Assembly (NCBI GenBank): GCA_027081395.1
Contig: JALWKQ010000151.1
Coordinates: 1-39,644, forward strand
Origin: Sulfurovum sp.
GTDB lineage: Bacteria; Campylobacterota; Campylobacteria; Campylobacterales; Sulfurovaceae
DNA length: 39,644 nt
Direction: 5' to 3'
Positions 12,381 through 39,455 of the stretch are shown piece after piece (the first letter of the stretch is position 1; the number at the start of each line of letters is the position of its first letter). The notes below the pieces were generated by a model, which was not told where the DNA came from, ran no database searches, and saw only the letters and a list, made by a program, of their open reading frames with translations. A program made the position numbers and the translations under genes.

Positions 12381-12528
12381 TTATCATTGAACCTTCGGAA
12401 AAAACTAATCCATTCGTATTGGGCAGGTGACGACAAAGGAGCATTAAACCCCTGAAAGGGGCGCTTGCGTTTGCGACTGCCGGAGTTGCCTGCCCGATAC
12501 GAATGGGCTTCAGAAGGTTTAATTGGCT
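12381..12528. repeat. Hairpin element copy A (conserved 55-nt apex, variable stem)
   Basis: Stem arms AACCTTCGGA (12390-12399)/TCAGAAGGTT (12510-12519) and CATTCGTATTGGGCAGG (12411-12427)/CCTGCCCGATACGAATG (12489-12505); apex 12431-12485 is 51/55 identical to 39328-39382. Confidence 0.8.
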
Positions 12529-39278: not shown

Positions 39279-39425
39279 AGCCAATTGAAGCCTCTGAATA
39301 ATTATGCATGGAGGTTTCACACGATGGCGACAAAGGAGCATTCAACCCATGAAATGGGCGCTTGCGTTTGTGACTGCCGGAGCTATCGTGTGAAACCGGT
39401 AGTTTTTTATAGATCTTAATTGGCT
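39279..39425. repeat. Hairpin element copy B (conserved 55-nt apex, variable stem)
   Basis: Outer AGCCAATT (39279-39286)/AATTGGCT (39418-39425); stem GGTTTCACACGATGGC (39313-39328)/GCTATCGTGTGAAACC (39382-39397); apex 39328-39382. Confidence 0.8.
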
Positions 39426-39455
39426 ATAATAAGCAAAATAATTAAAGGAAATATC

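Follow-up and report, generated by a model that had tools for sequence, protein, structure and literature searches.

Small palindromic repeats in bacterial genomes are usually regarded as junk or as simple mRNA hairpins. Insertion sequences (IS) of the IS200/IS605 group have neither target duplications nor terminal inverted repeats (TIRs), and their active strand lies on the lagging-strand template. Bacterial MITEs are non-coding elements of 70-300 bp with TIRs, target duplications and strong hairpins, found at AT-rich intergenic sites (PMC3733652, PMC10969869). Fork-directed insertion is known for several IS families and for clamp-binding transposases (PMC5371812). At the attC sites of sedentary integrons, the folding strand is the leading-strand template in 25 of 30 cases (PMC5371416). 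The window analysed here, a stretch of 39,644 nucleotides from Sulfurovum sp. (contig JALWKQ010000151.1, forward strand), contains two copies, A and B, of a hairpin element (Table 1). They belong to a family that is real, new and strongly supported.

The apices of copies A and B differ at 4 of 55 positions, and two of the four differences form a compensatory pair in the inner hairpin (CCCC/GGGG versus CCCA/TGGG), both as described in the first-pass annotation. The pattern derived from the apex matched twice in the window against 0 matches expected. The annotation was also right that TTAATTGGCT lies 34 nt past the end of the apex in both copies (starts 12519 and 39416); it represents the right terminus of the element together with the AATT duplication. 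The stems of A and B differ in sequence yet are self-complementary, and both folds are far beyond those of shuffled sequences (copy A, -65.3 kcal/mol, z -6.6; copy B, -52.0 kcal/mol, z -4.5). Pfam bears out the location of copy A between aroB and a TrkA-like gene, which carries a TrkA_C domain; both genes are on the minus strand. The nhaA gene beside copy B corresponds to PF06965. The AGCC...GGCT sequence flanking copy B is host target sequence and lies outside the element. Copy B abuts AATTGGCTATAATAAG (39418-39430), which resembles a -10 box and precedes the GTG start codon of nhaA by about 25 nt; insertion of copy B may have determined the upstream portion of the promoter of nhaA.

Table 1. 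Positions of the two element copies and of their parts in the window.
Feature	Position	Strand	Basis or remark
Copy A, left target duplication CATT	12385..12388	.	Register from the family target duplication test; 3/4 match to the right AATT
Copy A, whole element, 132 bp	12389..12520	+	TIR GAACCTTCGGAAAA / CTTCAGAAGGTTT; family length 131 bp
Copy A, stem P1 left arm, CGTATTGG type	12410..12431	+	Fold, covariation
Copy A, conserved apex: internal loop GACAA/GCCGGA, helix P2, hp1, hp2	12431..12485	+	
Copy A, P2 left strand AGGAGCA, pairs with 12472-12478, central tandem G.A	12437..12443	+	Covariation
Copy A, hp1 CCCCT-GAA-AGGGG, GNA triloop	12449..12461	+	
Copy A, P2 right strand	12472..12478	+	Covariation
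Copy A, stem P1 right arm	12485..12506	+	Fold, covariation
Copy A, right target duplication AATT	12521..12524	.	Sequence, family target duplication test
Copy B, left target duplication AATT	39283..39286	.	Sequence, family target duplication test
Copy B, whole element, 131 bp, upstream of nhaA	39287..39417	+	TIR GAAGCCTCTGAATAA...
Copy B, stem P1 left arm GGTTTCACACGATGGC, host-genome majority type	39313..39328	+	Fold, covariation
Copy B, conserved apex	39328..39382	+	
Copy B, stem P1 right arm	39382..39397	+	Fold, covariation
Copy B, right target duplication AATT	39418..39421	.	Sequence, family target duplication test

Read along the plus strand, stem P1 (15-18 bp) leads through an internal loop (GACAA / GCMRGA) into helix P2 (7-9 bp, ending in GCA/UGC), which is followed by the CCC...GGG hairpin hp1 and a second small hairpin, hp2. 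Among 21 host copies, 99.4% of the cells are paired and 15 of 25 pairs have changed on both sides; for 30 diverse copies the values are 97.5% and 18 of 21, where related copies inflate the cell counts and not the number of pair types. None of 500 shuffles reached the covariation values of either set, and sliding the partner abolished pairing. P2 covaries too: a tandem G.A in most copies is replaced by AU/UA in L049 and by Watson-Crick pairs elsewhere. The sequence of the stem is free, and its pairing is under selection.

In the host MAG (1.6 Mb, 79% complete) the element is dispersed in 25 copies rather than 2. Although the stems of A and B differ, the idea of a copy-specific stem is only partly right: most host copies carry the copy B stem, GGTTTCAYNCGATGG, and a second type (CGTATTGG...) is common to copy A, L051, L053, L091, L117 and L118. 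The stems form subfamilies and are not unique to each copy. The first-pass annotation held that other copies with the same stem, as in an ordinary repeat, or a lack of significant covariation would speak against its reading; such copies do exist, but the covariation is overwhelming. A covariance model built from 21 host copies (R1) found matches in 13 of 60 relatives, all of the same genus. Matches to a stem-diverse model (R2) were confined to one family (f1) and three genera across 397 Campylobacterota genomes, with 11 candidates scored per genome, a setting under which weak single copies may escape. The rich genomes contain 25, 25, 27, 14, 13, 19, 16 and 48 copies, and nearly 190 were collected in all; around the common apex, every lineage has multiplied a stem and end variant of its own. 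No match was found in Rfam 15 at the gathering threshold or at E<=1, and viral contigs gave no match to the apex pattern. Over 84,980 species, this pattern hit 46 contigs, of which 45 are titled Sulfurovum and one Nitratiruptor. The latter copy (L209, WGBC01000063.1) combines a diverged apex with a paired P2 of its own and a stem of GCTTGC/GCAAGC, and reflects either a wider range of the family or a misbinned contig. Apart from this contig, all matches lay in the Sulfurovaceae. In a long form of the apex, hp2 is replaced by ~80 nt with conserved hairpins of its own (CGGTTCCGAAGC, AAGGACAAGCAGTTGTCCTT). This form is conserved between species (L051, L052 and L053 in the host, L124 and L125 in G009, L329 and L332 in G282) and may be the ancestral full-length core.

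Several copies occupy orthologous sites. In seven species it is flanked by a TPR gene and batD; in others, such sites adjoin gltX, ychF and cbpA (dnaJ-like) or separate a pair of hsp20 genes. Stems at these sites are sometimes wholly different (e.g. L203 versus L193), yet they still pair, and the copies share the same apex and P2; the stem therefore changes in situ while selection maintains its pairing. For close groups whose junctions can be aligned (L092, L097, L213), which do not comprise every pair, repeated insertion is excluded. Together with the covariation, these sites uphold the proposal that the fold is selected and that the element is not the product of simple copying. The other proposal, self-rewriting of the stem by the element, is not needed, because stepwise compensatory change accounts for the stems at orthologous sites. 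The persistence of old copies that lack TIRs and still pair suggests a role beyond movement.

Young copies are 131 bp long and are bounded by TIRs (GAACCCTCTGAAAAA / TTTTTCAGAGNACTC). Perfect 4-bp direct repeats flank 14 of the 28 copies that retain both ends (shuffled mean 4.6; reached in 0 of 5000 shuffles), and only the 4-bp register is clearly above shuffles. The duplications include AATT, AATA, AATG, AATC, CATT and AGTT, among others. One usable empty site (L288 versus L305) agrees with a 4-bp duplication; intergenic flanks among G282, G389 and G108 were mostly too diverged for this comparison. Since it combines TIRs and 4-bp target duplications in ~131 bp, and is also non-coding, multi-copy and intergenic, the element is MITE-like. 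A match to IS ends, which the first-pass annotation held would speak against its reading, was thus found in part, the ends being those of a MITE-like transposable element.

A scan for TIRs in G282 for an autonomous parent IS returned no convergent pair 1-3 kb apart and just more MITEs; the same scan in G278 matched a reversed control equally often. A RAYT/Y1 mobiliser was rejected: none of 30 Y1 loci contained a model match, and G389 carries 16 copies and no Y1 transposase. An intact integron integrase is encoded in G009 (L385, C75:37563-38513) and broken or partial ones in G013, G032 and G389; at the integrase loci examined, no element model match lay beside IntI. These searches identified no transposase or recombinase that mobilises the element. 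In G282, the same inverted ends surround CGTC-type REP hairpins (CGTCATCCTGAAC...) at L325, L330, L331 and L333, with the AATT flank present at least in L331. Common inverted ends around a CGTC-REP interior suggest one mobiliser for both. CGTC repeats have been reported without a link to any transposase (PMC3733652). A repeat of ~80 nt (CTATTCCGGACTTGATCCGGAATCCGG...TTCAGGATGACGG), itself a CGTC-type REP pair, lies in the right flank of L287 in G282 and occurs at ~20 places in G389.

The two strands are not equivalent. Single stem mismatches on the plus strand are far more often G.T than C.A, both at positions 1-12 (70 versus 21) and next to the loop (123 versus 7). A C.A on the plus strand is a G.U on the other, and it is therefore the plus strand that is kept foldable. 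It also folds better than the minus strand, in 145 of 181 copies under RNA parameters and in 135 of 181 under DNA parameters. The loop of hp1 is GNA (149) or GNNA (8) in 157 of 184 copies, where N is A, C, G or T, and is closed by C-G or T-A. Such loops form extraordinarily stable DNA mini-hairpins (PMC4686876), and for this reason, which is a resemblance and not a measurement, we lean towards DNA.

Orientation follows replication. In the orientation of the element, GC skew around the copies is negative at 154 of 190, which places the folding strand on the C-rich leading-strand template, and it is negative on average in every genome. The bias is seen in all four gene contexts (negative:positive, -E- 43:11, -E+ 42:9, +E- 20:4, +E+ 19:6). 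Genes do not account for it, because it holds where they run with the element. In G108, a closed genome, the skew changes sign near 0 and 1.1 Mb, and the plus strand of 12 of 13 copies is on the C-rich strand, i.e. the leading-strand template. Either insertion is directed by the fork, or those copies survive whose folding strand is least exposed. With the strand asymmetry and the GNA loops, this orientation inclines us to a folded single strand of DNA. As for gene context, 82 of 117 copies have a left-hand gene that is encoded on the minus strand and starts nearby, and neighbouring genes (gltX, ychF, cbpA, hsp20, batD, aroB, nhaA) have no common function. In the flank from which the plus strand would be transcribed, promoter-like motifs are not enriched. 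Just to the right of the elements, extended -10-like motifs reading leftward number 29 against 8 expected, and many copies thus seem to be situated in the 5' UTR of the left gene, between its start and a promoter. A riboswitch or leader was rejected, as neither gene context nor orientation is consistent among the copies.

The reading that we tentatively prefer, at slightly less than even confidence, is a Sulfurovaceae-specific non-autonomous MITE-like element that is kept as a folded single strand, with its apex read by a protein. A transposase acting in trans would use the TIRs and insert the element with 4-bp target duplications. The core hairpin, the conserved apex on its 15-18 bp stem, would have to fold on one strand (plus in the window). 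We infer that this strand is single-stranded DNA rather than RNA and that a protein reads the apex for movement or maintenance. Copies would survive mainly where the folding strand is the leading-strand template and folds least often, a pattern reported for integron attC sites. However, TIR-based transposition with target duplication is symmetric and by itself needs no folded single strand, tandem G.A, G.U and covariation suit RNA equally, and sliding-clamp-binding transposases could give an orientation bias without a folded strand (PMC5371812). The further claim of a new type of mobile DNA recognised as a folded strand, in which the enzyme reads the apex, the stem only pairs and the TIRs at the foot join the fold, we consider unlikely.

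The main rival, a structured small RNA or transcript module spread by a MITE, would also explain covariation on one strand with tolerance of G.U, the conserved internal loop with its tandem G.A, and the retention of TIR-less old copies at orthologous intergenic sites. The plus strand would be transcribed, the apex would bind a protein or ligand on a stem that serves as scaffold, and the old copies would be domesticated RNA genes. We regard this as somewhat unlikely, with both neighbouring genes on the opposite strand at most old sites, no promoter-like enrichment on the plus side, an orientation that tracks replication and not genes, and no Rfam match even at the permissive E-value. Palindromic MITEs with TIRs, target duplications and no coding capacity are common (PMC10969869), and orientation biases occur in several IS families (PMC5371812). 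The element might accordingly be one of these, its arms corrected by template switching at the fork (as in a quasi-palindrome), its fold without function and its orientation set by a clamp-binding transposase. Arm correction predicts equal numbers of G.T and C.A, contrary to the 70 and 21 observed, and leaves unexplained the conserved apex, covariation in P2 and the hp1 closing pair, the free N in a fixed GNA loop and retention at orthologous sites in seven species; this explanation is already weakened, and we think it quite improbable. A cis-acting mRNA element, REP-like and located in the 5' UTR or between cistrons, would act in the minus-strand RNA of the gene that starts 20-60 nt to the left. 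The frequent minus-strand left gene with its close start and the -10-like motifs that read leftward through the element from its right would fit. Minus-strand RNA predicts an excess of C.A over G.T on the plus strand, the opposite of what is observed; moreover, orientation is equal in convergent and co-directional contexts and the neighbouring genes share no function, which makes it very improbable.

The element can be compared with several known systems. Rfam structured RNAs likewise have covarying helices, a conserved internal loop and multi-hairpin apices, but the element matches no Rfam 15 model. REP/RAYT and IS200/IS605 systems resemble it in their short palindromes, single-strand hairpin recognition and replication-linked orientation. 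Unlike REP/RAYT, it has no GTAG/CGTC tag at its foot and no linked Y1 transposase; unlike IS200/IS605, it has TIRs and target duplications, and it folds on the leading-strand template, whereas the active strand of IS608 is the opposite one. With MITEs such as Correia/NEMIS, ERIC, RUP, Nezha and QMITE, it has size, TIRs, duplications and hairpins in common, whereas its lineage-own stem under one conserved apex, strand-specific covariation and replication-linked orientation set it apart. We know of no MITE with a covarying private stem beneath a conserved apex. The ~190 copies provide direct evolutionary evidence that the fold of one strand is selected, that the stem sequence is irrelevant and that orientation is linked to the fork and not to genes. 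Which folded strand a MITE needs, and what reads it, is now testable within one bacterial family. Membership among integron attC sites was rejected: RYYYAAC / GTTRRRY boxes occur in 5 of 190 copies, and the copies are dispersed and not beside IntI. In attC sites, as in this element, one folded strand is recognised and structure outweighs stem sequence; the attC apex is variable, whereas that of the element is conserved and accompanied by TIRs and target duplications. If the further claim of a new type of mobile DNA is true, this folded-strand DNA would resemble an attC site with recognition at its tip and with a TIR and target duplication chemistry of its own.
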